From a virus, in the IMG/VR virus record IMGVR_UViG_3300027721_000016, positions 1 through 61,387 of that record: a DNA stretch of 61,387 bases; one strand, written 5' to 3'. Under the pieces are notes generated by a model, which ran no database searches, had not been told where the DNA came from, and saw nothing but the letters and a program-made list of their open reading frames with translations. Below, piece after piece: positions 1 through 59,755 of this stretch. The position numbers were made by a program, and so were the translations under genes. How positions within the stretch are numbered: position 1 is the stretch's first letter; every line of letters begins with the position of its first letter.

Positions 1-129
1 CCATCGCGGGTGTCTTATCGCACTTGCTAGATTCGATAGACGTTGCCAAGATGAGCAAAGGCGCGGTCACCACCGCGCATTCCGCAATAACCGCCACGGC
101 CACCAGCGCAGAAATCGATTGCCGAGGAT
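1..129. repeat. Terminal direct repeat, left copy
   Basis: Bases 4-129 are identical to 61262-61387 (126 bp). Only bases 1-3 (cca) differ from the corresponding agc at 61259-61261. One reading frame passes through both copies. This is what an assembler leaves when it linearises a circular or circularly permuted genome; a real short terminal repeat is the alternative. Confidence 0.9.
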
Positions 130-386
130 TCAATAGCCTGCTAATTCATTGGGTTTCCAACGCAACCGATAAAACCTGGGTAATCAGTATAACTGGGTCC
201 ACAGGAAGCGGTCTAACTTTCGTGCCATTGCTCGACAAAACGACGGGGCTTGCCGCAAGCGAAATCACCACCGACATAAGCGGCTTCTTTGTAATTAGCA
301 ATATACCAGACTACATCAAGATAGTGGCAACCGAAACCGATGATGGTGCAACCGTGACCTGCAAGGTGCAGCCGTTCAATAGTTGA
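3..386 (+). CDS. Virion surface/adhesin-like protein, C-terminal part (gene wraps the window ends)
   Basis: This is the 3' part of the gene that starts at 60913. The frame is the same across the 126-bp overlap, giving a joined protein of about 243 residues. This portion has no start of its own. It is a beta-rich, Thr/Ser/Ala-rich stretch ending in a compact jelly-roll-like pattern (alternating hydrophobic residues, a GSTGSG turn, closing TVTCKVQPF). The N-terminal part carries a GVMALGVRSD...GDYHPF...DANGAAW pattern that recurs in tail-fibre and appendage proteins of many tailed viruses. The next gene begins 8 bases downstream, so the two are likely co-translated. Function as a virion surface protein is inferred from this motif and its place beside the deacetylase. 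Confidence 0.75.
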   Translation: MAGVLSHLLDSIDVAKMSKGAVTTAHSAITATATSAEIDCRGFNSLLIHWVSNATDKTWVISITGSTGSGLTFVPLLDKTTGLAASEITTDISGFFVISNIPDYIKIVATETDDGATVTCKVQPFNS

Positions 387-393
387 GGGGCAT

Positions 394-1617
394 ATGGTCA
401 GATCAGCATTGCCACAAAACCATATCATCGATGTGCCTATCCAATATCTAGATTTCCCGGCTCATACAGGATGGACTGTGGATATTGGTGCGGCCTCCAC
501 CGACACGGTAAATTACATATCAGGCGGCTCCGCGATAAAATGTACGGTCACTGCCGCTGGGTCTTGGGGAGTAGCGCGTCGCAAATTGGTAGACCTGGGC
601 ATTCAATCACCAGGCGACTTAAATAATCAGGTTGGATATATATGGGTATATTTATATAATCAAGTCTCTGAATATTCTAAAATTGCAATATATTTCATGC
701 AAGCGGGCGTTGATAGCAATTATGCGATCCAAGAATTGCCATTGAGCGGTCTGGTCCCTGGCTGGAATCAAGTATATATCTCGCCGGATTCATGGAACTA
801 TTACGGCACGGCGTCTGCCGGTGCTGTATTTACCTATATAAAAGTAGGGTGCTTGGGGGCGACCGGGAAAACGCCATCAGCGACATTCGACGCGCTGTAT
901 TTCGGGCAGCGTGGGCGATCAAACTGCATCATCCAATTCGATGATGCATTAGAAACATCCTATACAGTGGGCTACCCTCTATTGGCCGCTGCTGGAATGG
1001 TCGGAACCATAAACGTCATCTCTGACCGGGTGGGCACGACTGGATATATGACGCTTGCCAAACTGCAAGAGCTATATGCTGCCGGTTGGTGCATCGCCAA
1101 CCATTCCAAGAGTCATGCCCATCCGAATGTTGATAATATCGTCGCTGAATTCACTGGCTGCCGAGATTACCTAATCGCAAACGGGATGCCCCGCGGTGCG
1201 TCATATTTCGCATACCCCTATACAGAATGGAGCGCGGCGATGAACACGCTGCTGGCCGCGCAGGGGTGCGTGGTTGCCCGCACTAGCACGAGTTCGCAGA
1301 GATATTTATCATACCCATTCAATACTTCCGGCTCTATGTATGTGCATGGGGTCGGTTATTATCTGTATGACGCAACGACAACGGCAGTGATAGACACCGC
1401 CATCACAAATGCTCTACGTGCTGGCAGATCTATTCTATTTTTTGCTCATGAAGTTGAGGCATCCCCGGCGGGCGGAAACTGCTCGACTGCCAATTTGCAG
1501 TATCTTGTGAATCTAATGATAGCGAAAAACATCAAAGCGATAACGTGGGACGAATGGTACAACGGTCTCGCTAATCCTCGATATAGGTCGCTATCGCCTA
1601 CCAGGACGCCACGATGA
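394..1617 (+). CDS. Virion-associated polysaccharide deacetylase (NodB-like) with N-terminal carbohydrate-binding-like domain
   Basis: The protein has 407 residues. Residues 1-170 form a beta-rich, aromatic domain resembling a carbohydrate-binding module. From about residue 178 comes a NodB-homology deacetylase: QFDDA (181-185, the TFDDG metal-binding/base motif), NHSKSH (236-241, metal-binding HxxxH) and YFAYPYTEW (271-279, the active-site groove motif). Family members remove N-acetyl groups from surface polysaccharides using a divalent metal. There is no signal peptide, and its position next to an adhesin-like gene fits a receptor-binding or depolymerising tail appendage. A GAGGGG ribosome-binding site lies 3 bases before the ATG. 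The substrate is unknown; an archaeal surface glycan is the natural guess. Confidence 0.8.
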   Translation: MVRSALPQNHIIDVPIQYLDFPAHTGWTVDIGAASTDTVNYISGGSAIKCTVTAAGSWGVARRKLVDLGIQSPGDLNNQVGYIWVYLYNQVSEYSKIAIYFMQAGVDSNYAIQELPLSGLVPGWNQVYISPDSWNYYGTASAGAVFTYIKVGCLGATGKTPSATFDALYFGQRGRSNCIIQFDDALETSYTVGYPLLAAAGMVGTINVISDRVGTTGYMTLAKLQELYAAGWCIANHSKSHAHPNVDNIVAEFTGCRDYLIANGMPRGASYFAYPYTEWSAAMNTLLAAQGCVVARTSTSSQRYLSYPFNTSGSMYVHGVGYYLYDATTTAVIDTAITNALRAGRSILFFAHEVEASPAGGNCSTANLQYLVNLMIAKNIKAITWDEWYNGLANPRYRSLSPTRTPR

Positions 1618-1729: not shown

Positions 1730-2140
1730 ATGTCAAATTTCGAAACTACATGCACTGTATGCGAAAATGACATTTCAATTACAGAACGGGAAATTAAACT
1801 TGCAATCCAGCACAAAGGAGACACCGGCGGCAAGATCCTGGTAAGCTGCCCGGAATGTTGTAGGGTGCTCGTGATGCCAGCCGACACGCCAGAAGGCAGC
1901 GACTTGGTGCAATGGATCACTGATGTCCAAGATGTGGTATGTGTCCCTATCCTGAATGATGACTATATCAGGATACCAGCCGGAAGAGAAACGTTGCTCG
2001 GAAAAACCAGCTACAAACCAGGCGGCGGTGATCGGTCGTTGGGTAAACGTGCATACATGTTCCGATATGGGATCAATCCCGAATGCGCTCTGGCAAAGAA
2101 CCCGAGCATGGGCGGAAAGCCGTTTAAAATCGGTGACTAA
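1730..2140 (+). CDS. Zinc-ribbon protein of unknown function
   Basis: 136 residues. The N-terminus carries two Cys pairs, CTVC (residues 8-11) and CPEC (40-43), spaced as in a treble-clef or zinc-ribbon fold. The rest is mixed alpha/beta and basic towards the C-terminus. It lies between the receptor-binding gene and the membrane/lysis genes, with a GGTGAG-type ribosome-binding site before the ATG. I cannot assign a role; a late virion or lysis accessory is possible from context only. Confidence 0.65.
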   Translation: MSNFETTCTVCENDISITEREIKLAIQHKGDTGGKILVSCPECCRVLVMPADTPEGSDLVQWITDVQDVVCVPILNDDYIRIPAGRETLLGKTSYKPGGGDRSLGKRAYMFRYGINPECALAKNPSMGGKPFKIGD

Positions 2141-2142
2141 TT

Positions 2143-2268
2143 ATGGCAGATCGGCAATGGAAAAAAGGCGGCGAAATGTTCAAAGAAAAGGACGGCAAAA
2201 AATATCAGCAAATGTGGACCAACAAGCCGCCCGGCCATCAGGAGCCTGTTTGGGTTGAGGTGAAATGA
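2143..2268 (+). CDS. 41-residue basic microprotein
   Basis: MADRQWKKGGEMFKEKDGKK... is a Lys/Trp-rich small protein ending with PVWVEVK. It starts 2 bases after the preceding stop, and its stop lies inside the start region of the next gene (ATGATGA), so it is translationally coupled. No domain recognised. Confidence 0.55.
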   Translation: MADRQWKKGGEMFKEKDGKKYQQMWTNKPPGHQEPVWVEVK

Positions 2269-2468
2269 TGCCTGATGACATATCCGTCTCAATGGCAGAA
2301 GGAAGCATCGATATCAATGGCTGGAAGGCAACCGGCGTAAGGCTCTATTCGCTCGCGCTGGTTGTGATTCTGGCATATGTGGCGGGATCGTTGTATGTAG
2401 GAGACATATCCGGCTTGAAAGAGATAGCGTTGATTGTAATTGCGTTTTTCTTCGGCAAAAAGGCTTGA
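2265..2468 (+). CDS. Small two-helix membrane protein, holin candidate
   Basis: 67 residues. The charged N-terminal 24 residues are followed by a clear transmembrane helix (about 26-46, VRLYSLALVVILAYVAG) and a second hydrophobic helix (about 52-64), ending in a basic GKKA tail. That is the layout of small holins. It lies immediately before the metacaspase-like gene and near two more membrane proteins, so a lysis cassette is plausible. Holin function is inference; no family match can be shown here. Confidence 0.6.
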   Translation: MMPDDISVSMAEGSIDINGWKATGVRLYSLALVVILAYVAGSLYVGDISGLKEIALIVIAFFFGKKA

Positions 2469-2474
2469 GGCAAC

Positions 2475-3170
2475 ATGAAAAAAGCATTCATCTTGGCTCC
2501 ACCCTACCAACCGCCCAACGACCTGCCACCTCATGACAACAATGTGGCCCTCTGGCAGGCCACCCTGGCGGCAAGAGGCTTTACATCGATTGTGACAAAA
2601 TCGACTGCTGAGGAAACCATATTGGCCGCCGTGAGATCCAACCTTCCGGCCTTCATGCGGTCGTTGGTCAAAGGTGATCGGTGGGCCATAATCCGCACCG
2701 GTCACGGTTATAGGCAGCTCGACCAAAATGGCGACGAACCGGACGGCTATGATGAGTGTTTGGCATGCAGTGACCTAGGGATGCTGGTAGATGATGGGAT
2801 GGCCACGTGGCTGGCGATGGCACCGGCGGGAACGGTTGGTGACCTGGTAGACGATTTCTGCTATGCAGGGACAGCGGACAAGGCACCGATGCGGAGCCCA
2901 ATACGAGATAGGGTAATTGTGGGATCAGGCACCAAAGCCGCCTATTACAGGTACTGGCAGGCATGTGAGGCGTGGCAAACTGCATGGTGGGGGTATTTTG
3001 GCAGCATGCCGTACACGGTTTTCACAAAATGTCTATGTGACGCATTGGCAGCTAATACATTTGCCCCTGCCACAACCATCTATCAGATCATGAAAAACCG
3101 CCTGACGAGCTTAGAACCGTCCCAGACACCGTTGCTGAGCGGCCCAAATCAGAACACCGTACCATTTTGA
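2475..3170 (+). CDS. Metacaspase/caspase-fold (C14-like) cysteine peptidase
   Basis: 231 residues. The p20-type core is visible: RTGHG with catalytic His77, followed by the metacaspase signature GDEPDGYDECL (residues 86-96), then LVDDFCYAGT with catalytic Cys129 at the position of the canonical DxCxSGT motif. Metacaspases cleave after Lys/Arg and are common in bacteria and protists but unusual in tailed viruses. The gene lies between a holin-like protein and a coiled-coil membrane protein. It may therefore serve as an endopeptidase for lysis or entry, or process host or virion proteins. There is no signal peptide. The fold assignment is strong; the biological role is open. Confidence 0.75.
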   Translation: MKKAFILAPPYQPPNDLPPHDNNVALWQATLAARGFTSIVTKSTAEETILAAVRSNLPAFMRSLVKGDRWAIIRTGHGYRQLDQNGDEPDGYDECLACSDLGMLVDDGMATWLAMAPAGTVGDLVDDFCYAGTADKAPMRSPIRDRVIVGSGTKAAYYRYWQACEAWQTAWWGYFGSMPYTVFTKCLCDALAANTFAPATTIYQIMKNRLTSLEPSQTPLLSGPNQNTVPF

Positions 3171-3176
3171 GGCTAC

Positions 3177-3539
3177 ATGAATGGGAATCAAGAAAATAAT
3201 GAAATCCTCCGGGCGATTGGGGACCTGGAGGGTACCGTAAAAAGTTTGGTCGAAAGCATCAATGATCAGCATGAAGACCTCAAGGGCGTGCGGGTGACAT
3301 GCCAACGATTTGAAGACTATCGAGAAGCTCGGAAGGATATTCCCACGCAAATAGCGGATCTTAAGGTCGTTGCAAGTGACTATGAAAACAGTAAAAGAGT
3401 GCGCGATGAAAAATATGCTAAGGTAGATTTTTTAGTCAATAATTATAAATTGGTACTTGCGGTAGGATCGGCCCTCTATTTCATTCTAGGACTCTTCGGC
3501 ATAGCGTTCTCGCGGGGGTGGATCAAATGGGGTTTGTAA
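3177..3539 (+). CDS. Coiled-coil protein with C-terminal membrane anchor (lysis-associated candidate)
   Basis: 120 residues. About 85 residues of heptad-rich, charged helix precede one transmembrane segment (about 92-113, LVLAVGSALYFILGLFGIAF). This resembles XhlA-like hemolysin/holin accessory proteins of phages in overall layout only. It starts 6 bases after the metacaspase stop and overlaps the next gene, so it is probably one transcription unit with the lysis candidates. Confidence 0.6.
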   Translation: MNGNQENNEILRAIGDLEGTVKSLVESINDQHEDLKGVRVTCQRFEDYREARKDIPTQIADLKVVASDYENSKRVRDEKYAKVDFLVNNYKLVLAVGSALYFILGLFGIAFSRGWIKWGL

Positions 3540-3853
3540 TCGATTGGGGGTGGGTGCAAGTCGTTTCTGTCTTGATCGCGTTTGCGGTAGCGGTCATTTT
3601 GCTTCGATACTTGCGAAAAATAAGCATGCTGATGAGGATAGGCATCGTATTGTTTCTGGCATGCCTCGCGATCGCAGACGAATACGCATCAGCCGGGCAG
3701 ACGCCGATCATAGCGCCACCATCAACCCAATTGCAACGGGCTTGCATGACTTTTTTGGATGCGATGGGGCAACCGGACTATGTGCTCTTCCTGTCGAATG
3801 ACTATTGGCCATGTCCATTGAATAATAGCAGTATAGGCAATTATACAGCATGA
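3527..3853 (+). CDS. Membrane protein of unknown function
   Basis: 108 residues from the ATG at 3527, which has a GGGGGTGG ribosome-binding site 4 bases upstream; a GTG three codons earlier is the alternative. Two hydrophobic helices (about 8-26 and 33-50) are followed by a Cys-containing, probably exposed tail (PPSTQLQRACMTF). It overlaps the previous gene by 13 bases. It is likely part of the same membrane/lysis cassette, perhaps a holin, antiholin or spanin-like partner. Confidence 0.55.
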   Translation: MGFVIDWGWVQVVSVLIAFAVAVILLRYLRKISMLMRIGIVLFLACLAIADEYASAGQTPIIAPPSTQLQRACMTFLDAMGQPDYVLFLSNDYWPCPLNNSSIGNYTA

Positions 3854-23225: not shown

Positions 23226-23918
23226 TCATAAATTTTTAAATCCTGGCATTAATACGCCATCTATATTGTTTGATCCAAGTTTATAAAATTCCGGGTCAAA
23301 CAGCGTCGACATTCTTGTATTCTCAATTCCCAATAACGCACCATATCGGTCATAGTGGCTGCAATATGGCAAATCGTTGCTGACTATATAGGTCCAAACG
23401 TCGCGGGCCGTGAGGTTCATCAATGGGTAACATTCCAACATTTTACCATTCCAACGGAATGGTTCAGATGCTTTGCGTTTGCGTTTTCCGGATTCTTCTC
23501 GGCGGAGGCCAATGAATGCCAGATCGTATCCTTTTGATATCAGATCGGGTTGCACCCGGCCAAACATCTCGGGAAAATAGATGTTTTTGGAAGTTCTGCC
23601 AGCGAGATCATATTTGCTGGATGTGTCCACCCGGATATTCTTTGCCCCAATTGTTCCCGCGATGCCCAATATCTCAGTTTCCAACCCCATCGGAAAATAA
23701 TATTTCCCGAAATAGAAATGTTCAACTAAGACCTCAGGACAGACACGTAGAACCATATGAAGCATAACCAGGCTATCTTTGCCACCTGAGTATGCGATGT
23801 ATGGTTTATTTGCCCGATCGAGGGCCTCTGCAATGAGTCCTTGAGATGCTTCGATCCGGTCTTTGTAATCATCTAATTCAGCATGCATTTGGAAGGCAGC
23901 CTTTTCAATCGGTGTCAT
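23226..23918 (-). CDS. cysH: CysH-like PAPS reductase-family protein
   Basis: 230 residues. YIAYSGGKDSLVMLHMV (about residues 41-57) is the PP-loop (SGGKDS) of adenine-nucleotide alpha hydrolases; FIGLRREESGKRKRK and CYPLMNLTARDVWTYI are the following PAPS-reductase landmarks. No Fe-S Cys pair or C-terminal ECGLH motif is visible, so sulfonucleotide reduction is doubtful. Many PP-loop relatives instead work on nucleic acids (DndC, tRNA thiolation). A CysH-like gene is the known companion of type IV-B CRISPR loci, and here the csf genes lie upstream in the same leftward transcription unit. Last gene of the block. Confidence 0.8.
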   Translation of the reverse strand: MTPIEKAAFQMHAELDDYKDRIEASQGLIAEALDRANKPYIAYSGGKDSLVMLHMVLRVCPEVLVEHFYFGKYYFPMGLETEILGIAGTIGAKNIRVDTSSKYDLAGRTSKNIYFPEMFGRVQPDLISKGYDLAFIGLRREESGKRKRKASEPFRWNGKMLECYPLMNLTARDVWTYIVSNDLPYCSHYDRYGALLGIENTRMSTLFDPEFYKLGSNNIDGVLMPGFKNL

Positions 23919-24102
23919 TGAAATCGTTTAGACTCCTGTCCATACATGGTTTTTTCCCATGAATCTTACCATGAATCTGTTCATATTCTTCTCGGAACGA
24001 TCTTTTAGATGGCTTCTGGTAGCATGTATAGCAGACAGGTCCAACGCCGGATACCGTCATCTTGCCATCCAGGTCAGATGTACCGCATAGTCTACATTTC
24101 AT
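23905..24102 (-). CDS. Zinc-ribbon protein between CysH and glycosyltransferase-like genes
   Basis: 65 residues from the ATG at 24102. CRLCGTSD and CYTCYQK provide a CxxC...CxxC zinc ribbon, followed by a basic, helical tail (KRSFREEYEQIHGKIHGKK). It overlaps both neighbours by 11-14 bases. May be a nucleic-acid-binding accessory for the downstream CysH-like enzyme; inference only. Confidence 0.6.
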   Translation of the reverse strand: MKCRLCGTSDLDGKMTVSGVGPVCYTCYQKPSKRSFREEYEQIHGKIHGKKPCMDRSLNDFNDTD

Positions 24103-24676
24103 AAGTCGTGCTCCTTCTAGGATTTCCAAAACAGTTAGCAGAATGACGCACTAGAGACGGTAGAATATCCGTTGCATGGTCAACTAAGTTAGGTAGGCAG
24201 ATCCAAACAGGCTCCTTTTTGGCCCGAAGGAACATCTGCAATTGCTCATCATGCCAAATTCGATTAGCCAAACGACCGTTATCTAACCAATTAAGATAAT
24301 CATCAAGCAAATCGTGTCTCATTATAACTGCTTCTTCTCCTAAAAACGAGGACGGTGCGGAACGTTCCCATTTTTTCCCCTTTTCGAATGCCAGCCGCGC
24401 GGTTTTTCTGGGACTATACAGAGAAATGAACCGCTTTCCATCACATGTGTCTAACCGCGAAACAAGCTGGTTAATAAAATCTTGGCAAAGACGCACGTCA
24501 TCATGAATTACCATGCCCCAATCATCACCGCGCACTGCATGCCACGCAAGTTCATGTCCATCTGACAATTTCAAATCGGGCCGCTCAATAATGATCAGAT
24601 CACCGGGCAAAAATGGAATTATGTGTTCTTCTGCATATGTCCGCCTCGGTGGCATCAAAGAAAGCGCAATCTTCAT
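24092..24676 (-). CDS. Glycosyltransferase-like protein (GT-A fold candidate)
   Basis: 194 residues from the ATG at 24676, overlapping the DUF3440 stop by ATGA. DDWGMVIHDDVRL (about 50-62) looks like the strand plus DxD-type motif of GT-A transferases. The end, WHDEQLQMFLRAKKEPVWIC then LPNLVDHATDILPS, matches the acceptor-side pattern of GT25/GT32-like enzymes (Pro-x-Leu-Val-x-His). It might glycosylate DNA, a tail protein or a host glycan. Its presence among DNA-modification genes makes base modification worth testing. Confidence 0.55.
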   Translation of the reverse strand: MKIALSLMPPRRTYAEEHIIPFLPGDLIIIERPDLKLSDGHELAWHAVRGDDWGMVIHDDVRLCQDFINQLVSRLDTCDGKRFISLYSPRKTARLAFEKGKKWERSAPSSFLGEEAVIMRHDLLDDYLNWLDNGRLANRIWHDEQLQMFLRAKKEPVWICLPNLVDHATDILPSLVRHSANCFGNPRRSTTYEM

Positions 24677-25746
24677 AGTATTGCCCTCCACCTTTCAAGC
24701 TTATCATTTTTCGGCTTCTTGGTAATTGAGATATTATTTTCCCAATCATTGATTAGAAGTTGCTTACATTGTTGCCGGAAAGTATATTCATCTTTCGGCT
24801 GATCCGCAAATCGCTTCACGAATCTGTATCGCTTCTCAGTTGGTATAGTCGCTAGCAGATAATCGCGATATTCCAGCCACTTTTTGAATGCGTTGGGCAA
24901 TTTCCCGTTGCTGTAGATCATATTTTCTTTAGCATACAAGGCGGCACAATGTGTGCCCTTTATTCGCTTTATGACTTTTTCAAACGTGTCTGGTTCAAGA
25001 ACCTGCAAGTCCGTCAGACACTTGAAAGATTTTTCGTGTATCAGGTTGCTGACACGCATTTTGTTATAGATGCTGGTCCCGTTCATAAAAATTTTGTTGT
25101 AGATATCGTTATAGGAAAACTGGTTATCATATATGTATTTCCAGACATCGCCCATGCCCCAGTCATAAATAGGGTACATTTTGTACGATTTTGAGTTACT
25201 TGATTTGGTGCTCCACTTGATGCCCTTGTATCCAGGATATTTGGTAACTGCCCGATACCGGGTTATTCCCTCCTCTGCTCGGAGGCCTACCAAAAACGCA
25301 CTTCCATCCGGTTGCCAAGCTTCAAACCAGTTAAAGAATTTATAGAATCTTTGGGGGTAGGGATCACTTATAGATTTTATCGAGATGTCCTCTTTTGGCC
25401 TCAGCCATTCGGCTCCTTCCGACCATGCATAGAGCATGTCCTCTTCATAGCTGGTTGAATTCGTCATGTAGATCGGCACTTGATACCACATTGGCACCAC
25501 GTTTGGATGTGCCATCATGGTTCGCACGACATCGATAGTTGCAGCATACTCAACTTCTTGGTCAAGGTAGAACAAATTGATTTTTCTGTCCCTCTTAATC
25601 GCTTCTTCCAGTGCCAGATGATACAAAGCAGTTGAATCCTTTCCACCGCTAACCGATACATATATGTGTTCAAATGTATCAAATATGAACGCAATTCGTT
25701 CGCGGGCGGCTTCAAGGACATTTTTCCCCAAATATTTACGCTTCAT
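24673..25746 (-). CDS. DUF3440-type PAPS reductase-like protein (IbrA-like)
   Basis: 357 residues from the ATG at 25746. IYVSVSGGKDSTALYHLALE (about 28-47) is a PP-loop; LFYLDQEVEYAATIDVVR is the second strand typical of PAPS reductases; FLVGLRAEEGITRYRAV and KMYPIYDWGMGDVWKYI follow. The long C-terminal region with KSFKCLTDLQVLEPDTFEKV is characteristic of the DUF3440/IbrA group. IbrA is usually partnered with the ParB-like IbrB, and a ParB-like gene lies two genes upstream here. It probably uses ATP to activate or transfer sulfur or another group; the substrate is unknown. Confidence 0.8.
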   Translation of the reverse strand: MKRKYLGKNVLEAARERIAFIFDTFEHIYVSVSGGKDSTALYHLALEEAIKRDRKINLFYLDQEVEYAATIDVVRTMMAHPNVVPMWYQVPIYMTNSTSYEEDMLYAWSEGAEWLRPKEDISIKSISDPYPQRFYKFFNWFEAWQPDGSAFLVGLRAEEGITRYRAVTKYPGYKGIKWSTKSSNSKSYKMYPIYDWGMGDVWKYIYDNQFSYNDIYNKIFMNGTSIYNKMRVSNLIHEKSFKCLTDLQVLEPDTFEKVIKRIKGTHCAALYAKENMIYSNGKLPNAFKKWLEYRDYLLATIPTEKRYRFVKRFADQPKDEYTFRQQCKQLLINDWENNISITKKPKNDKLERWRAIL

Positions 25747-26569
25747 AAAGAGCCTCTGTAAGGTCGTTTGTCTCAGATACAATTCGTTCTATTTCGGATC
25801 GCAGATAGAGATCTACCTTCAGGTCGGTGACGTGAAACGTCATCTCTTCCCTTATGTTATAGAGTTTTTTCATGTCGGAGAAGATATTTCGCTCAGGGCA
25901 GATAGATTTTGCATAATCAGTTAGTCCCTTTATGATGCTCTTGATATTGGTTTTGGTATCAAAAAGCTCTTCTTTCAGAACATAGTATTCTTCTTGTTGC
26001 TCATCGGTTACATGATGCTCATCGAAGTTGATTTCGAAGTCGAAGAACTTCTGGTAATGCATCTTAGTATGTTCTCCGACTTTCGAAACTATCCAAGGTA
26101 CCTGTAAAGGTCTTTCTGCCAATCGGCCATCTTGCCAGGCACGATAAGCAGATTCCGCCGCGAATGAATGGTTATACTCCATAATAGTGGTTCGGAGTAA
26201 ACTATAAGGCCACATGATACGCCAGATTTCATCTTTGAAAGGCACGGTATCGATCGAGTACTTGCAACCATATTTGGAATAGTTAAATGCATACTCATAT
26301 CTCTGATCGCACCGGTTGGCAGGAGTCATCATATCGCTTATTCCGAGCACCACCAAAGCATTATTCTCATTATCCTGTAGCACTTCCTTGGTACTCGATC
26401 CATAGTTTTCAAAATCTATGAACGCGATGTCTGGCAATGCTAGAAGCGATGGATCGAATAATGGACTTTTAGACGTATATAGGCAATGAACCTCATTGAA
26501 TCCCGTAATGCCTGTCAAGATACCAGGAACATCCGCCGGATTCTTAGTGAAATGGCATCTGCCGATCAT
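25736..26569 (-). CDS. Conserved-context protein of unknown function between ParB-like and DUF3440
   Basis: 277 residues, soluble. The N-terminal half is alpha/beta (VHCLYTSKSPLF, DIAFIDFENYG, ALVVLGISDM) and the C-terminal half is mostly helical coiled segments (EEYYVLKEELFDTKTNIKSI; LRSEIERIVSETNDL). I cannot name a family. Its 4-base and 11-base overlaps with the ParB-like and DUF3440 genes imply a stoichiometric partner in that module. Confidence 0.6.
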   Translation of the reverse strand: MIGRCHFTKNPADVPGILTGITGFNEVHCLYTSKSPLFDPSLLALPDIAFIDFENYGSSTKEVLQDNENNALVVLGISDMMTPANRCDQRYEYAFNYSKYGCKYSIDTVPFKDEIWRIMWPYSLLRTTIMEYNHSFAAESAYRAWQDGRLAERPLQVPWIVSKVGEHTKMHYQKFFDFEINFDEHHVTDEQQEEYYVLKEELFDTKTNIKSIIKGLTDYAKSICPERNIFSDMKKLYNIREEMTFHVTDLKVDLYLRSEIERIVSETNDLTEALYEA

Positions 26570-27177
26570 TCTTCAACCCCCCACGCCTCCGCATATTCGT
26601 TCGCCCTAAGCATCTTGGCTGCCCCGGCTGTCTGCTTGAGTCTCAACAGCTCTTCAGTGGTCATGCCTAGATGAGCCGCGATCTGTTCATCCGATTCTCC
26701 GGACGACATTCGCTTAACAAGTTCGCCCATGAGATCGACTTGGTGACGGCCCCGCGCGCGATTATGCCTAACCGTTGAAGCATATCGTTCTTCGACCGTT
26801 TTGTTGATCTTTGTTATGGGAAGGTATCCGTAAATCCTCGCTTTGATATCCGGGTTTTGTTCGGGTATCTGCGATCTATGAAACCCATCGACCACTGTGT
26901 TTTTGTCGCCATCTCGACACGATACGATCGGCTGAGTAATACCGTCTTCGCGAATCGAAATCGCCAACAGCTTCATTTCCGGTTTTGCGACTTTGTTGGG
27001 ATTGTAGTCGTTTCTTACCACGGTGCTTGCCTGAACCCACACAACCAAGTCTACAGGCTCGTTTTTGAATGGACTGATTTCATGCAGCGCGGTTCTCATC
27101 TCATTCAAGGCATCTACCTTTTCCGCTAAAGGCAGTGCGTCGATGTGTTTCAACACATCCACCATTCCAGGAATCAT
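26566..27177 (-). CDS. ParB/Srx-fold protein (IbrB-like)
   Basis: 203 residues from the ATG at 27177, which overlaps the csf3 stop by ATGA. The ParB core is visible: WVQASTVVRNDYNPNKV, then LLAISIREDGITQPIV and VVDGFHRSQI (the GxHR motif that binds nucleotide in ParB/Srx folds). A C-terminal helix-turn-helix (EQIAAHLGMTTEELLRLKQ) follows. In the IbrAB pair this fold accompanies a DUF3440 PAPS reductase; it may bind CTP/ATP or DNA. Position directly after csf3 suggests joint expression with the CRISPR complex. Confidence 0.78.
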   Translation of the reverse strand: MIPGMVDVLKHIDALPLAEKVDALNEMRTALHEISPFKNEPVDLVVWVQASTVVRNDYNPNKVAKPEMKLLAISIREDGITQPIVSCRDGDKNTVVDGFHRSQIPEQNPDIKARIYGYLPITKINKTVEERYASTVRHNRARGRHQVDLMGELVKRMSSGESDEQIAAHLGMTTEELLRLKQTAGAAKMLRANEYAEAWGVEE

Positions 27178-27872
27178 ATCTCGCATCTCCCCCCAGGAGC
27201 AACACACATAGCCACATTCTCTGGTGCCCATCCAGGGAACGTATAAGCTAATCGCATCACTCGGATATTCTCAAACGATTTCAGCATGTTACATGGGATA
27301 GATCGCATCGCGATACCGTCTTTCGTGATGCTCCAATCAGTCGGTAATTCAGATATCGCGAAGCCGCAAACTTCGCCCCCACCAACTGCCCGCTTCTTCC
27401 CAAGATGCCTGATAGGAGATAGCAACCTCTTCAGTTCTTCCAGATTTCCGTTCATGTAGAATTTCACCGTCTTGCTGGCGGAATACGGGAATTTCATCAT
27501 ATAGTCCCTCATCATGCCGCTATTTCGCCGTATCCTGGTTTTGGTTTTCAGGTCCGCCGCCTCATGAAAACGCTTGTAGAGGACGGTTGTGTGCATCTCA
27601 TCAGTATCAAGAATTGATGCACTTGCGTGATAGATCAGACCCGTTTTTTGCAGGGGCAATCTCAGGAATTTCGATACTGGCAGCGGCTCTTTGGTGGGCA
27701 AGTTGTAGAACTCATCTCCTAGCATATCTTCCATCAGCATTCTAGCTACCAGCGCATCGCCAAAAATCCAAGGGAAGGCCATCATAAGCGGTGTTGCCAA
27801 CGAGAATGTTATCTCACATGGCTGGAAATCGGCAGGCGGGTTGTATGCCGCTAACCGATCTAATACAGTCAT
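27174..27872 (-). CDS. csf3: Type IV CRISPR Csf3 (Cas5-like) protein
   Basis: 232 residues. The N-terminal strand CEITFSLATPLMMAFPWIF and the switch to LDALLA-like ALVARMLMED match the RAMP start of Csf3. KRAVGGGEVCGFAISEL is the Gly-rich loop of RAMP proteins, and DGIAMRSIPCNML is the Csf3 G-x-x-x-R-P-I-P-like ending. Cas5-family proteins cap the 5' handle end of the guide RNA. Coupled by ATGA to csf2 upstream and to the ParB-like gene downstream. Family assignment is by motif reading; a profile search would settle it. Confidence 0.82.
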   Translation of the reverse strand: MTVLDRLAAYNPPADFQPCEITFSLATPLMMAFPWIFGDALVARMLMEDMLGDEFYNLPTKEPLPVSKFLRLPLQKTGLIYHASASILDTDEMHTTVLYKRFHEAADLKTKTRIRRNSGMMRDYMMKFPYSASKTVKFYMNGNLEELKRLLSPIRHLGKKRAVGGGEVCGFAISELPTDWSITKDGIAMRSIPCNMLKSFENIRVMRLAYTFPGWAPENVAMCVAPGGRCEI

Positions 27873-28699
27873 CCCTGCTCCAATGTCTGCAACATCTTCA
27901 GCATGTCGTCTTTGTTGGCCTCTACAAAATCAAGGTACGGCTTCGCGTCAGGCTTCGCGGGATAATCTAGCCGGACTTCTGCGTTTCCAGTTCCAGATTT
28001 CGCACCAAGGCGGGGTCTGAGCATCCACAGATCAATCATTCTGCCCAGGCACGCGGCTTCGATCTCGGACGGATTTTGCAGCACAAACCCATGCTGAAAT
28101 ACCGTTGCCGGTGGGATGTACCACCAGGTATGGAGCATCTGCGAGGAATCGCCGCCTTCGGCTTTTGCGTCCTGGCTCATTTCGTCTCTCCTGGTATTGA
28201 ATGTCTGTTTTTGCAGATCACCAATGCTTGCCGTTATCGTCTCAGGATTTCGCAGAATGCCTGCCAGCTCCTTGCATCTAGGCACGGCATAGGCTACATC
28301 CAGCTTTCCCTCTAGCATCTGGTTCCTCATTGCAGTTCCGAGCAACGCGACCGGCGGCAACAAGCCACGGATTTGCTTTTTCAACGCCAGATCTATGTAC
28401 CCGCTGTCCTTCTCATCTACTTGCTCCAAGGTCCCGCCCGCGAAAAGGCTGTGATAAAGCCGCACTTGGCCTTTAGCATCGGCTGGCTGGAATCCCACCA
28501 GATCAATGAGATCTGCCATGATTAGGCGACGTAGAACGCCTCTGATGGCATTGCCGGAGACGACAGGCACCTCTTCCGGTCCGGTTGGCAGGTTGTAAAT
28601 TATTGTCCGAAGTCCTTTGTCATTTCCATTGTTCTCATCCGATCCGCTATGGATCGGGCTAAGGGCAGTTATTGTGCCCGGCACATCTAATATCTTCAT
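27869..28699 (-). CDS. csf2: Type IV CRISPR Csf2 (Cas7-like) backbone protein
   Basis: 276 residues. SPIHSGSDENNGNDKG (about 14-29) and VVSGNAIRGVLRRLI (about 45-59) are the classic Cas7/RAMP N-terminal motifs. LYHSLFAGGTLEQ, then PPVALLGTAMRNQMLEGKLD (about 114-133) correspond to the FsGG.l...P.lslfGsa..n.ml.GkL pattern of Csf2. Cas7 proteins polymerise along guide RNA. It overlaps cas11 upstream and csf3 downstream by ATGA, so the subunits are tightly coupled. Confidence 0.88.
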   Translation of the reverse strand: MKILDVPGTITALSPIHSGSDENNGNDKGLRTIIYNLPTGPEEVPVVSGNAIRGVLRRLIMADLIDLVGFQPADAKGQVRLYHSLFAGGTLEQVDEKDSGYIDLALKKQIRGLLPPVALLGTAMRNQMLEGKLDVAYAVPRCKELAGILRNPETITASIGDLQKQTFNTRRDEMSQDAKAEGGDSSQMLHTWWYIPPATVFQHGFVLQNPSEIEAACLGRMIDLWMLRPRLGAKSGTGNAEVRLDYPAKPDAKPYLDFVEANKDDMLKMLQTLEQG

Positions 28700-29070
28700 A
28701 CAAATTTCTCCAATGATGCATTACCGTTCAAGGTCTTTTTTTCTTTTGCAAGTTTCGCGACCAAGAGAGCGATATATATGCTCTCGTTTCGCATTCGCCT
28801 GAGAACTTCAGGAGTTTCCTTTTCTAGATCCAAAAGTAGATCAGGATCGTATTCGAATGCAGTTGCCGTTCCGCCACGGGCTTGAAGCGGACATTTGGCG
28901 GCGATCGTCTCAAGTGCCGCCGCCACAGTGCGCTCATGGCCACCGATACGGATTCTACCTGCCATGAAATCATATGCCGACTTGGCGCCTGCTTTCTTCC
29001 AATCGATACTTCTGTAGCAATTGGCTAGAGTTTCGGCCAACTTCCTATAGATTTCATCTGGAAATTCCAT
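28696..29070 (-). CDS. cas11: Cas11-like small subunit of type IV-B complex (candidate)
   Basis: 124 residues, almost all alpha-helical (YRKLAETLANCYRSIDWKKAG; VLRRMRNESIYIALLVAKL). Size, helical content and position immediately before csf2 match the Cas11 small subunit of type IV-B loci (order csf1-cas11-csf2-csf3). Sequence conservation of Cas11 is low, so this rests on context and composition. Its start overlaps the end of a 54-residue gene by 17 bases. Confidence 0.65.
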   Translation of the reverse strand: MEFPDEIYRKLAETLANCYRSIDWKKAGAKSAYDFMAGRIRIGGHERTVAAALETIAAKCPLQARGGTATAFEYDPDLLLDLEKETPEVLRRMRNESIYIALLVAKLAKEKKTLNGNASLEKFV

Positions 29071-29218
29071 ATTTCTCCCCCCATAGTTTCAATGCTTCTG
29101 ATCCGGCGGCGGTGAGATCGCCGCGTTTGATTTTTCGCCCTAAGCGCCGTTCTAGGACGGCATGGAATAGGGCATTCTCTTCATCCGAGATCGAGAAAAA
29201 GATGCCTTTGGCGGGCAT
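29054..29218 (-). CDS. 54-residue helical protein between csf1 and cas11
   Basis: MPAKGIFFSISDEENALFHA... has a short strand, then two helices (LFHAVLERRLGRKIKRGDLT; GSEALKLWGEKYG), a layout compatible with a ribbon-helix-helix or small HTH. It starts 1 base before the previous gene ends and overlaps cas11. Could regulate the operon or be an extra complex subunit. Not recognised. Confidence 0.5.
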   Translation of the reverse strand: MPAKGIFFSISDEENALFHAVLERRLGRKIKRGDLTAAGSEALKLWGEKYGISR

Positions 29219-29512
29219 TTAGGCCCTCAGTTCGTCGTTCATCTCGACGATTGCGATACGATCTTCTATCATCTCATCGAGCCAATCTTTCCCGATGAAG
29301 GGACTTCTCCATTCATCGCTGATATGGATTTCGTACTGGCTGGATGGAATGTTTTCAAACCAGCTGCCGCTTGTGTCCCTGTAGAGAATCTGTTTTAGTT
29401 CTCCTGTTATTCTATCTACGAAAAAGGAGTTTCCTTTTCCGCCTCTCTTTCTCATGTAGCTCATCATTGCCCGGCGGGCGTCCGTGTTCGGTCTTGCGAT
29501 CTCAGTTGCCAT
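29219..29512 (-). CDS. 97-residue protein, first gene after the internal csf promoter
   Basis: MATEIARPNTDARRAMMSYM... has a basic N-terminal helix (RRAMMSYMRKRGGKGN) followed by a beta-rich centre (SFFVDRITGELKQILYRD) and an acidic end. No known family. It lies right behind the TATA box at 29534-29549, which makes it the leader gene of the unit that includes cas11, csf2 and csf3. Confidence 0.6.
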   Translation of the reverse strand: MATEIARPNTDARRAMMSYMRKRGGKGNSFFVDRITGELKQILYRDTSGSWFENIPSSQYEIHISDEWRSPFIGKDWLDEMIEDRIAIVEMNDELRA

Positions 29513-29533
29513 AATACTAGCTAGTCTAGCTAT

Positions 29534-29549
29534 CTATATATACCTTTCG
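29534..29549 (-). promoter_or_regulatory. BRE/TATA promoter of the cas11-csf2-csf3 unit
   Basis: Read on the minus strand: CGAAAGGTATATATAG. The purine-rich GAAAGG (BRE) directly before TATATATAG is the canonical archaeal core promoter. The TATA centre lies about 26 bases before the ATG at 29512, so the mRNA may be leaderless. It falls in the 42-base gap after csf1. Confidence 0.75.
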
Positions 29550-29554
29550 CCTGC

Positions 29555-30310
29555 CTAGCTCACAAACACCGCCATGCACCATGCAGGATCTGCCGCGCGG
29601 TGCCGCAAATCGCTAAGCACCGACGGCACGTCAAACCCAGCGTCGATCAGCTTCGCGACTCCGCCTGCACCCACATGGCCGCTTTCCAGCTCAGCTTTCG
29701 ACAACAGCACTTTGCCTGGTCGACTAGGATCAATACGCAGCATATCTATCAGCTTCAAGTCTAGATGCAACTTGGCTCGATCGATATAAGTTGGCTCATA
29801 GTCACATCCTGCCAAGAAGTACTCGCGGGAAGTGCTCACACCGCCGTTCAATCTGATCATTGCCTGCCAGGTCGTCTTTTTGTAGGTTCTGGTTAGGGAA
29901 ACCACAAACGGCGGCTCTGGTGGGTCGGTCAGTATGGAGCGCGGCGTTCTTTCGGGTAATGAGAATACTTCCGAAAGATCCCTTGCCACTAGCTGCTTGT
30001 CACCTGGCTTAGGCTCTCTTTTCGGGAAGCGAATGACACCGACGCCTTCAGAGGTCGCGTACCACGCATTGCTCCTGTAGAGCTTGCCCGCGCTCTGTTT
30101 TGCGCCGGGGATCTCTGCCGTCATCAGGTGGTGGCAGTTGGGACAGATCACGTTGCCGCCTGATAGCAGTGGCGCATTACAAAAGCTGTCACTGAAAATG
30201 GGAGGATGGCCTTCTGGGGTGGGTTCACCACAGAAAACGCAATTTCCTGTCATATTGCCATGCACCGGATCGATCTTCCGAGCCATCACGACCAATTCAG
30301 ATAGGTTCAT
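29555..30310 (-). CDS. csf1: Type IV CRISPR Csf1 (large-subunit-like, zinc-binding) protein
   Basis: 251 residues. The N-terminus has CVFCGEPTPEGH (Cys23, Cys26) and, after about 27 residues, CPNCHHLM (Cys56, Cys59), forming the zinc finger typical of Csf1. In the middle, PPEPPFVVSLTRTYKKTTWQ corresponds to the PPFV...KH-type segment of Csf1. The C-terminus is helical with a Gly-rich turn. Csf1 is the Cas8-like subunit of type IV effectors. It follows PCNA after 9 bases and is separated from the other csf genes by a promoter and two small genes. Confidence 0.78.
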   Translation of the reverse strand: MNLSELVVMARKIDPVHGNMTGNCVFCGEPTPEGHPPIFSDSFCNAPLLSGGNVICPNCHHLMTAEIPGAKQSAGKLYRSNAWYATSEGVGVIRFPKREPKPGDKQLVARDLSEVFSLPERTPRSILTDPPEPPFVVSLTRTYKKTTWQAMIRLNGGVSTSREYFLAGCDYEPTYIDRAKLHLDLKLIDMLRIDPSRPGKVLLSKAELESGHVGAGGVAKLIDAGFDVPSVLSDLRHRAADPAWCMAVFVS

Positions 30311-30319
30311 GTATCTTCC

Positions 30320-31042
30320 TCAATTTTGTTCGATCCTGGGGGCCAAAAGATAGCTAACGGCTATGTCCTTTCCCACCGAAAACATTATGCGGCTCGGATA
30401 ATCCACCCCGGTTTCCACAGTCGTCTCATTGCCGGATGCTACTTTTGCAATGTCTTCCAAGTATTCCAGAGAAAACAGAGACCTACTTATCCCCTGCCGG
30501 ATGCCGCTCAGTTCCGACAAGACGAAGTCGGCCCGGAACGAGTCTACGCCGGACTCGGAGACTATCGAAAACGTGTCCTCGTTTTGCTCTAAGGTAGCTG
30601 CTTCGCAGACTTTAACGGCGTTTTTCACAGCGGTGTATAGGTCGCTTCCCGCTATGGTCACAGCACATGGCAGATCGATAGATGGTATCCTCGGATTGGC
30701 CTTCAGGCTGGAAGGGTCAATCAGGGACATGATGAACGAGGATCGGCCCTGCTTGATTCGGAGCTTATGGTTGGCCTCATCTAGCTCCATGCTGATAGGC
30801 TCGCCTTTGCCGATCATGCTGCCCAATTTATCAATGTCCACCGCGATTTCGCAGTTGGTAGCTTCGAAGTGCTCAAATGCGTCCTTGCCAGCGACCAGCG
30901 ACACCATAGCCACGTTGGCCGGGTCGACGGTCTCTATTCGCAGGCCGTCAGGCGAAATGCCCATTCGGATTTCGGTTTGGATGCTGCTTATAGAGGCTAT
31001 GATGCTGTTTAGGGATTCGGGTTTTATGACTGCTTTAAACAA
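30320..31042 (-). CDS. pcn: PCNA sliding clamp
   Basis: 240 residues, the usual archaeal/eukaryotic PCNA length. MFKAVIKPESLNSIIASISSI, the strand GISPDGLRIETVDPANVAMVSL (about 28-49, the D-x-x-x-VDP-x-x-V pattern), SMELDEANHKLRIKQG and SIDLPCAVTIAGSDLYTAV (interdomain region) are all PCNA landmarks. It would form a trimeric ring tethering polymerase, nucleases and ligase to DNA. No viral DNA polymerase was recognised, so it probably recruits host enzymes. It is followed after 9 bases by csf1, so clamp and CRISPR subunit are co-transcribed. Confidence 0.92.
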   Translation of the reverse strand: MFKAVIKPESLNSIIASISSIQTEIRMGISPDGLRIETVDPANVAMVSLVAGKDAFEHFEATNCEIAVDIDKLGSMIGKGEPISMELDEANHKLRIKQGRSSFIMSLIDPSSLKANPRIPSIDLPCAVTIAGSDLYTAVKNAVKVCEAATLEQNEDTFSIVSESGVDSFRADFVLSELSGIRQGISRSLFSLEYLEDIAKVASGNETTVETGVDYPSRIMFSVGKDIAVSYLLAPRIEQN

Positions 31043-57850: not shown

Positions 57851-59755
57851 ATGAAAAAAATTCTAATAGTCACCATGCTCCTAATGCTGCTCATGCCGTT
57901 TGCGTTGGCCATCCCCGACCCCTACGATATGCTCAGGGGCAAGCAGATGATCCCCGTCGGCGGTCCGTGGATTGCAGATAATCAGTATATATATTTTGGC
58001 GACGATAAAGATTCGTACATAAAATACGATACCGCAACTGGCTATCTGGTCCTGAGCGGTGTTGCCGCTACATCACTGACAGCGGGCGGCACAGTGGGCG
58101 CAAACAACCACCTGACTTGTGCTGCAGGCTCTTCTAAGCTCGATTTCCAGCTAGGAACCGGCACAACCGATACCACAACGGGAATCAATACCCTGCATGG
58201 CGATGTCTCAATTTCGGACGGAAAAGATTTCGCGATGGTCGGAGCAGGAACTTTTGCGACCGGCACTGGCGCGGTTAGTCTTCTCGGCCCTACCACGATA
58301 GCGGACCTCGCTGCGATTACCGCCGGATCTGGGTCGGCTGCGTATGATCTTTCAGCCAGCACTGGGGCATTCACCACCTCATCCGGCGCAAATACTCTGA
58401 GCGGCGATACGACCATATCAGGCAGCAAAAACTTTACAACTGGCACTGGCACAACCGCCTTGAATGGCAATGTCACTCTTGCCGCAACAAAAGGATTCAC
58501 CAAAACGGCGGGCGTGGGCGATTTCGATTATAGCCTTGGAACCGGCGCATTCAAAACCGCGACAGGCACAAATACAATAGGCGGCGCGGTTGTGTTTGCG
58601 GCTGACAAGGGAGTCACAGTCAATGCCGGAACTGGCGCGTTTGACTTCTCCGGCGGATCTGGCCTCTTCAAAACATCTGCAGGCGCAGTCACAATCGGCC
58701 CAGGCGCAACCGGGTTGACCGGGGCAACCACCATAAGCAACCTTGCCGCAATCACCGCTGGATCGGGCTCGGCTGCCTACAACCTGGCTGCAAGCTCTGG
58801 TGCATTCGCTACCAGCACGGGAACGAATACCCTTAGCGGTGATACTGTAATCTCTGGTTCCAAGACATTCACCACCGGAACCGGGGCAGTGGCGATCAAT
58901 GGAGATACCACAATCGCAGCCACCAAAGGCATAACCAAGACCGCTGGTGCAGGAAACTTTGATTTCTCAGCTGGTTCGGGCACATTCAAGACATCTTACG
59001 GAATCAATACCCTGAGCGGTGATGTCTCCATAGCAGACGGAAAAGATTTCGCGATGGTCGGAGCAGGAACTTTTGCGACCGGCACTGGCGATGTCAGTCT
59101 AAACGGCGCTGTAACCATTGCCGCCAATAAGGATCTGTCCTTATCAGGAACGGGTGATGTCACTTCCGCCGCGACCATTCAAGGCGAGCAGGTAACGAGC
59201 ACGGATGATATGAACGTCACAGATACGCTCTATGTCGCTGATATTGTCCAATCCAACGATGCTGCTTTCACAAACGTAGATATCACTGGAACGCTTGATA
59301 TCGATACTCCAACGACCACTATCCGAAATGTGACGCTTGATGCCGATAAGACGTTAGCAGTAACCACAGCGGATAAGCTGACCGTTGGCGGCAACATCAT
59401 CCCACAGGAAATGGCTATTCCATTCACCTATACAGCTTCTTCTGTGGATGTTGGTGTATTCTCTGCTAAAGGTGCATGGAATATTACCGCTGTCGAGCTC
59501 GTGCCGAGGGTGGTTGGCGGGGATGCTGGAGCCGTAAACGTAACTGTCAAGGTATGTGACAGTGGCGAAGCTCCTGCGTCTGGTGTGGCTGCTCTGAGCG
59601 CGGTCTTAGACTTGAAGGGTACAGCAGATACTACCCAGGCCGGATCACTTAGCGCAACTGTTGCATGTACGGCTGCTCAGTACATCGCTCTGGATTTCAC
59701 GGGCACAATGACCGACGCGGTTGGATCGGGTACGATATGGGTTAAGAGAGTCTAA
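57851..59755 (+). CDS. Secreted or surface repeat-rich protein with signal peptide
   Basis: 634 residues. Residues 1-21 (MKKILIVTMLLMLLMPFALA) are a Sec signal peptide. A beta-rich middle (about 70-440) repeats GSGSAAYDLSASTGAFTTSS-GANTLSGDTTISGSK-type units at least six times, at DNA level including an exact 55-base duplicate (58217-58271 = 59036-59090). The C-terminal domain (FTYTASSVDVGVFSAKGAWN onward) resembles a beta-sandwich trimerisation or receptor-binding domain. Signal peptides are unusual for tail fibres; it may be a host-surface or exported protein. GAGG ribosome-binding site. Confidence 0.65.
   Translation: MKKILIVTMLLMLLMPFALAIPDPYDMLRGKQMIPVGGPWIADNQYIYFGDDKDSYIKYDTATGYLVLSGVAATSLTAGGTVGANNHLTCAAGSSKLDFQLGTGTTDTTTGINTLHGDVSISDGKDFAMVGAGTFATGTGAVSLLGPTTIADLAAITAGSGSAAYDLSASTGAFTTSSGANTLSGDTTISGSKNFTTGTGTTALNGNVTLAATKGFTKTAGVGDFDYSLGTGAFKTATGTNTIGGAVVFAADKGVTVNAGTGAFDFSGGSGLFKTSAGAVTIGPGATGLTGATTISNLAAITAGSGSAAYNLAASSGAFATSTGTNTLSGDTVISGSKTFTTGTGAVAINGDTTIAATKGITKTAGAGNFDFSAGSGTFKTSYGINTLSGDVSIADGKDFAMVGAGTFATGTGDVSLNGAVTIAANKDLSLSGTGDVTSAATIQGEQVTSTDDMNVTDTLYVADIVQSNDAAFTNVDITGTLDIDTPTTTIRNVTLDADKTLAVTTADKLTVGGNIIPQEMAIPFTYTASSVDVGVFSAKGAWNITAVELVPRVVGGDAGAVNVTVKVCDSGEAPASGVAALSAVLDLKGTADTTQAGSLSATVACTAAQYIALDFTGTMTDAVGSGTIWVKRV
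58217..58271 (+). repeat. 55-base exact repeat, copy 1
   Basis: Identical to 59036-59090. Both lie in the repetitive secreted protein and encode GKDFAMVGAGTFATGTG. Recent duplication or gene conversion is implied because synonymous sites are also identical. Confidence 0.9.
59036..59090 (+). repeat. 55-base exact repeat, copy 2
   Basis: Second copy, identical to 58217-58271, within the same gene and about 820 bases downstream. Confidence 0.9.

Follow-up and report, generated by a model that had tools for sequence, protein, structure and literature searches.

The window, by which the whole stretch of viral DNA analysed here is meant (61,387 nucleotides, IMG/VR record IMGVR_UViG_3300027721_000016), carries on its plus strand an intact open reading frame at 2475-3170, which starts with ATG and encodes a putative metacaspase-like (C14) peptidase of 231 amino acids. 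It is embedded in a tight row of genes for small membrane proteins. The gene six bases upstream (2265-2468, plus strand) encodes a protein of 67 amino acids with two predicted transmembrane (TM) segments, whereas the gene six bases downstream (3177-3539, plus strand) encodes a 120-residue coiled-coil protein with one C-terminal TM segment, a layout that appears to be XhlA-like. The latter overlaps by 22 bases with a further gene (3518-3853, plus strand), the 111-residue product of which has two predicted TM segments, the second being signal-like and followed by a probable exterior tail. The motif TGAGG, a ribosome-binding site, precedes both the metacaspase gene and the coiled-coil gene. The flanking holin-like and coiled-coil proteins described in the initial annotation are thus both present, but the upstream neighbour is holin-like by its shape, that is, by two hydrophobic segments, and a holin function is suggested by TM prediction. 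Further upstream, a paired-CxxC protein resembling a Zn-ribbon (1730-2140, plus strand) is an uncertain member of the cassette; similar-looking CxxC proteins were recognised by eye upstream in contigs L040 and L104. The row is preceded by genes for a probable tail protein (24-386, plus strand), the module of which is 83% identical in L040 and approximately 50% identical in L100, and for a polysaccharide deacetylase (PF01522, 1.8e-9; 394-1617, plus strand) that is possibly associated with, or modifies, the virion or envelope. The cassette lies inside the morphogenesis region and not at its end.

Parts of this arrangement recur in diverged viral contigs. A homologue of the holin-like protein occupies the same place beside the metacaspase in L056/L101 (1e-9 to 4e-11), with an analogous two-TM protein in L040, and the coiled-coil protein recurs directly downstream of the metacaspase in L040/L102 and L080 (1e-9 to 1e-11). 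The homologue of the 3518-3853 protein in L080 is weak (about 1e-3 to 1e-5); its layout is also seen in L040 and L101, and in L104 with one TM segment. In L038/L104 small membrane proteins are arranged in a comparable way, with no detectable similarity to the window cassette. The metacaspases of L040, L056 and L080, which share parts of the cassette, and of L038, which shares the layout, are 24-37% identical to that of the window.

The juxtaposition of a small TM protein, a lytic enzyme and a coiled-coil TM protein is found in the holin-endolysin cassettes of tailed phages, including XhlA-XhlB-XlyA of PBSX. The window shares this layout and has the adjacent small multi-TM protein (2265-2468), but its enzyme would be a caspase-fold protease and not a peptidoglycan or pseudomurein hydrolase; no such hydrolase, nor any other lysin, was recognised among the scanned window proteins.

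The metacaspase and its predicted fold

The catalytic dyad is formed by His77 (2703-2705) within TGHG and Cys129 (2859-2861) within DDFCYAGT, accompanied by GDEPDGYDE at residues 86-94 and a C-terminal QTP motif. A chance motif match was rejected as a reading of this gene, as was a pseudogene; the DNA pattern GHG-N24-DExDxxDE is matched once in the window and in 0 of 100 shuffles. Searched against the PDB with phmmer, the protein matched GSU0716 (7.7e-9) and plant metacaspase-4 (2.4e-6), and a profile of 46 viral sequences matched yeast Mca1 at 4.9e-58. The AlphaFold model (pLDDT 84, pTM 0.84, with residues 132-153 poorly modelled) retrieved metacaspases first among PDB entries in Foldseek, including AtMCA9 (1e-13) and GSU0716 (5e-13), and comprises a caspase fold of a p20 and a p10-like C-terminal part. 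His77, Cys129, Asp87, Glu88, Asp90, Asp93, Glu94, Asp106, Asp127, Gln217 and Pro219 are invariant across the 46 aligned viral relatives. On sequence and model together, the product of 2475-3170 is a metacaspase, and the initial proposal of such a peptidase with a His77-Cys129 dyad is borne out by motifs, invariance, phmmer matches and fold alike.

The protein has no match in Pfam (including the Peptidase_C14 model), PHROGs or NCBIfam, so that it would normally be left as "hypothetical". Its relative in L002 matches PF00656 at 4e-26, and the missing Pfam match therefore reflects divergence and not a lack of kinship. Like the prokaryotic metacaspases and orthocaspases (MEROPS C14; GSU0716, PDB 3bij), the window enzyme has the His-Cys dyad, the caspase fold with a C-terminal part, and the DExDGxDE and QxPxL motifs; it differs from them in being encoded by a tailed virus, within a membrane-protein cassette, and in its altered residues 20, 23 and 75. 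All fold matches in a viral structure library at E<=1e-3 (25/25) were proteins of eukaryotic viruses, nearly all of them giant viruses. The metacaspases of Fadolivirus, Clandestinovirus and Medusavirus share the fold, but their hosts are eukaryotic, and they are not known to have a holin/endolysin cassette.

To call the motifs near-perfect, as had been done initially, was too strong, for although the dyad and GDEPDGYDE are present, three near-invariant positions of the 46-sequence alignment are altered (C20 to H, D23 to N, S75 to T). The closest relative, that of L056 (37% identity over its full length), deviates at the same sites, the changes in the pair being C20 to H/T, D23 to N and S75 to T/L. 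The S1 pocket of TbMCA2, which accepts Arg/Lys, is made up of Cys92, Asp95, Ser156 and Asp211, and mapping by alignment places H20, N23 and T75 of the window protein where the presumed counterparts would be C, D and S, with D127 kept. Owing to these alterations, the substrate of the window enzyme may differ, and its cleavage preference may no longer be for Arg/Lys (for the effect of TbMCA2 Cys92, see PMC5756287). Asp106 and Asp107 are conserved, which is compatible with calcium-dependent proteolysis. A signal peptide is absent from the protein.

A tailed virus of a probable archaeal host

Approximately 126 bases are shared between the two ends of the window, and the junction is spanned by another contig, L001 (99.8-100% identical); the genome thus closes, being either circularly closed or terminally redundant, and a host fragment was rejected as a reading of the window. 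A terminase (phrog_38), a tape-measure protein (PhageMin_Tail) and a Mu-F-like head protein (Phage_Mu_F), found together with an archaeal replication protein, point to a tailed archaeal virus (Caudoviricetes). The replication protein is an archaeal-type PCNA sliding clamp (30320-31042, minus strand), nearest to that of Haloferax (1.5e-37) and to those encoded by haloviruses and by a Methanomicrobiales virus. The same Methanomicrobiales virus, vir524, has the closest terminase (51% identity over 56% of the length). A host search via the conserved tail protein (24-386) returned only a contig binned as Syntrophomonas, and the host was accordingly deduced from the PCNA and terminase: probably an archaeon of the Halobacteriota, of a methanogen-type lineage without peptidoglycan. 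The archaeal assignment made initially is supported by these relatives; the other metacaspase contigs yielded no PCNA. In the Syntrophomonas-binned phage contig L100, the tail-protein relative is followed by an amidase-like ORF, recognised by sequence inspection, and a three-TM ORF, so that this bacterial relative appears to have an ordinary lysis pair in the region.

Other features of the genome may be mentioned here. On the minus strand within 23226-30310, PADLOC identified type IV CRISPR effectors, namely Csf1 (29555-30310), Cas11 (28696-29070), Csf2/Cas7 (27869-28699; 1e-55) and Csf3/Cas5 (27174-27872; 1e-46), close to two CysH/PAPS-reductase-like genes (23226-23918 and 24673-25782), which is also the case in type IV-B; viruses of Bathyarchaeia are known to carry a set of that type (PMC10848311). 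One of the 34 proteins in 21884-49007 matches the type I Thoeris inhibitor Tad3 (PF25185, 1.1e-37), and other family matches among them are PTPS, RecT, Prim-Pol, MazG-like, ParB-N and CoiA. Two diverged direct repeats of 101 bases (58181-58281 and 59000-59100; 83-89% identity) lie within the gene at 57851-59755.

Phage metacaspases and their lysis neighbours

A motif scan of IMG/VR yielded 94 contigs, about 92 of which carry real metacaspases, the matches in L061 and L074 being due to chance; protein- and alignment-based searches for relatives had recovered at most ten viral loci. No match to the window protein was obtained by tblastn among 50,697 GenBank phages, and three relatives used as queries returned only an uncultured megaphage, a partial match in a faecal phage and a Salmonella genome record (ICE-like protease). 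Judging from these four queries, metacaspases are nearly absent from the GenBank phages.

Lysins from roughly ten families are among the neighbours of these phage metacaspases: GH25 (L032, L045, L060), Amidase_2 (L073), Amidase_3 (L018, L079), muramidase (L058), phage lysozyme (L067), GH108 (L019), CHAP (L049), NlpC/P60 (L091), SLT (L006) and a PGRP-type amidase (L034). The association was examined in 47 contigs searched whole with five lysin families. Stand-alone wall hydrolases lay within 2 kb of the metacaspase in 9 of the 14 contigs with a stand-alone hit (1.3 expected, P=5e-7) and within 5 kb in 10 of 14 (P=4e-5), values that are optimistic because some of the families had been picked after the neighbours had been read, with L032 found blind. 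Small TM proteins are likewise enriched within two genes of the metacaspase (45/200 versus 29/411, P=1e-7), also when the relatives of the window are left out (P=9e-6). Several of the enzymes carry TM anchors of their own, N-terminal in L018 and L067 and C-terminal in L045 and L078, while those of L059 and L063 have lipobox-like N-termini (LTGCSS, VSGCVS); these features suggest that some phage metacaspases are placed at the envelope. Tails that look amphipathic by eye are found in L060 and L072.

Clear relatives of the window metacaspase occur in phages with bacterial-type peptidoglycan hydrolases; the metacaspase is not specific to archaeal viruses. The lysis-cassette context that had been proposed gains support from the recurrence of cassette parts in other viral contigs and from the linkage to wall hydrolases. 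No lysis neighbour is in view for the metacaspases of L066, L039 and L026. Those of L066, L084 and L099 form a group surrounded by sugar/glycosyltransferase-like genes, no lysis gene being visible nearby, which counts against one universal role of phage metacaspases.

Virus egress and competing roles

The intact dyad and predicted fold, the tight operon, its recurrence, the linkage to hydrolases, the enrichment of small TM proteins, the anchors, the lack of another recognised lysin and the archaeal host together argue for a part in lysis. Peptidoglycan hydrolases would not work in such a host, which supports a protease as the lysin. The window metacaspase is probably part of a lysis cassette, whatever its role there; the narrower proposal, by which it would serve as the lytic protease in a cassette for late lysis (egress), has about even chances. 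Against it stand the missing signal peptide, the three altered sites, the position of the cassette inside the morphogenesis region and the copies that lack lysis neighbours. The initial annotation had named lysis, entry and manipulation of host death side by side; the context favours lysis, but it is a choice that sequence cannot settle.

It is rather unlikely that the metacaspase is an accessory gene which came to lie beside lysis genes at a boundary that accepts insertions, and which encodes a protease manipulating the host in defence, cell death or superinfection. Prokaryotic caspase-like proteases are discussed in the context of cell death and immunity (for example in PMC8195603 and PMC12805718), the contexts of the phage metacaspases vary, some not being beside lysis genes, and the hydrolase linkage could be due in part to a hot spot of accessory genes at the edge of the lysis module. 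Insertion of this kind accords poorly, however, with cassette parts that recur in several diverged viruses, with six-base gaps on either side of a metacaspase held between holin-like and coiled-coil membrane genes, and with the membrane anchors or lipobox-like signals that several of the phage enzymes carry and that suggest action at the envelope; PADLOC, moreover, gave no defence match for the window metacaspase. Action on the way into the cell, by a virion-associated peptidase cutting the S-layer or sheath, would suit the location of the cassette among structural genes, near the probable tail protein and the polysaccharide deacetylase. It is nevertheless improbable, given that in the window the enzyme is not fused to any tail protein or virion-targeting domain, that membrane proteins lie on both sides of the metacaspase, and that the phage relatives adjoin stand-alone lysins, some with TM anchors of their own. 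Equally improbable is a processing protease for late viral proteins, which might, for example, activate the adjoining membrane proteins or parts of the virion. Metacaspases are enzymes of limited proteolysis and the exposed tails of the neighbours could be substrates, but the virus has a separate match to a head-maturation-protease-type family (phrog_530), and processing alone would not explain the linkage to wall hydrolases.

Should lysis indeed be the role, the two-TM protein (2265-2468) would permeabilise the membrane late in infection in the manner of a holin, and the metacaspase, synthesised as a cytoplasmic protein that lacks a signal, would then be released or exposed. The higher calcium outside would possibly switch it on. 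Calcium is needed by eukaryotic metacaspases, but not by p20-only orthocaspases (PMC5756287), and since the enzyme of the window includes a p10-like part, such a switch upon membrane opening is an attractive, if unproven, idea. The activated enzyme would cut the protein part of the envelope, be it the S-layer, the sheath or their anchors, and so allow the virions to exit, with the flanking coiled-coil/TM and two-TM proteins serving as holin partner, envelope tether or regulators.

Cysteine peptidases have been proposed for archaeal virus egress before, namely the pseudomurein endoisopeptidases PeiW and PeiP of methanogen viruses (PMC4456609, PMC2989375). They belong to another family, however, and target pseudomurein, which Methanomicrobiales-type hosts lack; no PeiW/PeiP-type domain was found in the window. 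The sheath-like (SH) egress proteins in viruses of sheathed archaea are comparable as candidates for breaching the protein envelope of a methanogen, but work by structural interference and not by proteolysis as proposed here, proteases being mentioned there only as one possible way of breaching sheaths (PMC11576556). Holins and S-layer-degrading proteases were put forward for archaeal virus lysis in a 2015 review, when no such enzyme was known (PMC4456609). A 2025 survey of prokaryotic viral lytic proteins covered 129 archaeal dsDNA viruses and detected such proteins in no more than 10.9% of them, and the word caspase is absent from its main text (PMC12596118). Metacaspases are already known from bacteria, eukaryotes and giant viruses; among the papers searched for metacaspases in connection with phages, endolysins or the lysis of archaea by viruses, none describes a cassette of the present kind.

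The data are best read as a division in which the metacaspase replaces the endolysin in archaeal viruses and is accessory in bacterial phages. By extension, and with somewhat less than even confidence, caspase-fold proteases are proposed as an unrecognised class of viral lysis enzymes, acting as the main lysin in tailed viruses of S-layered or sheathed archaea and as helpers beside endolysins in uncultivated bacterial phages. The question addressed is how tailed viruses leave protein-walled archaea, for which the finding offers a concrete gene pair. If true, caspase-fold enzymes would acquire a part, on the side of the virus, in the death of prokaryotic cells, and they could also yield proteases that act on the S-layers or sheaths of archaea.
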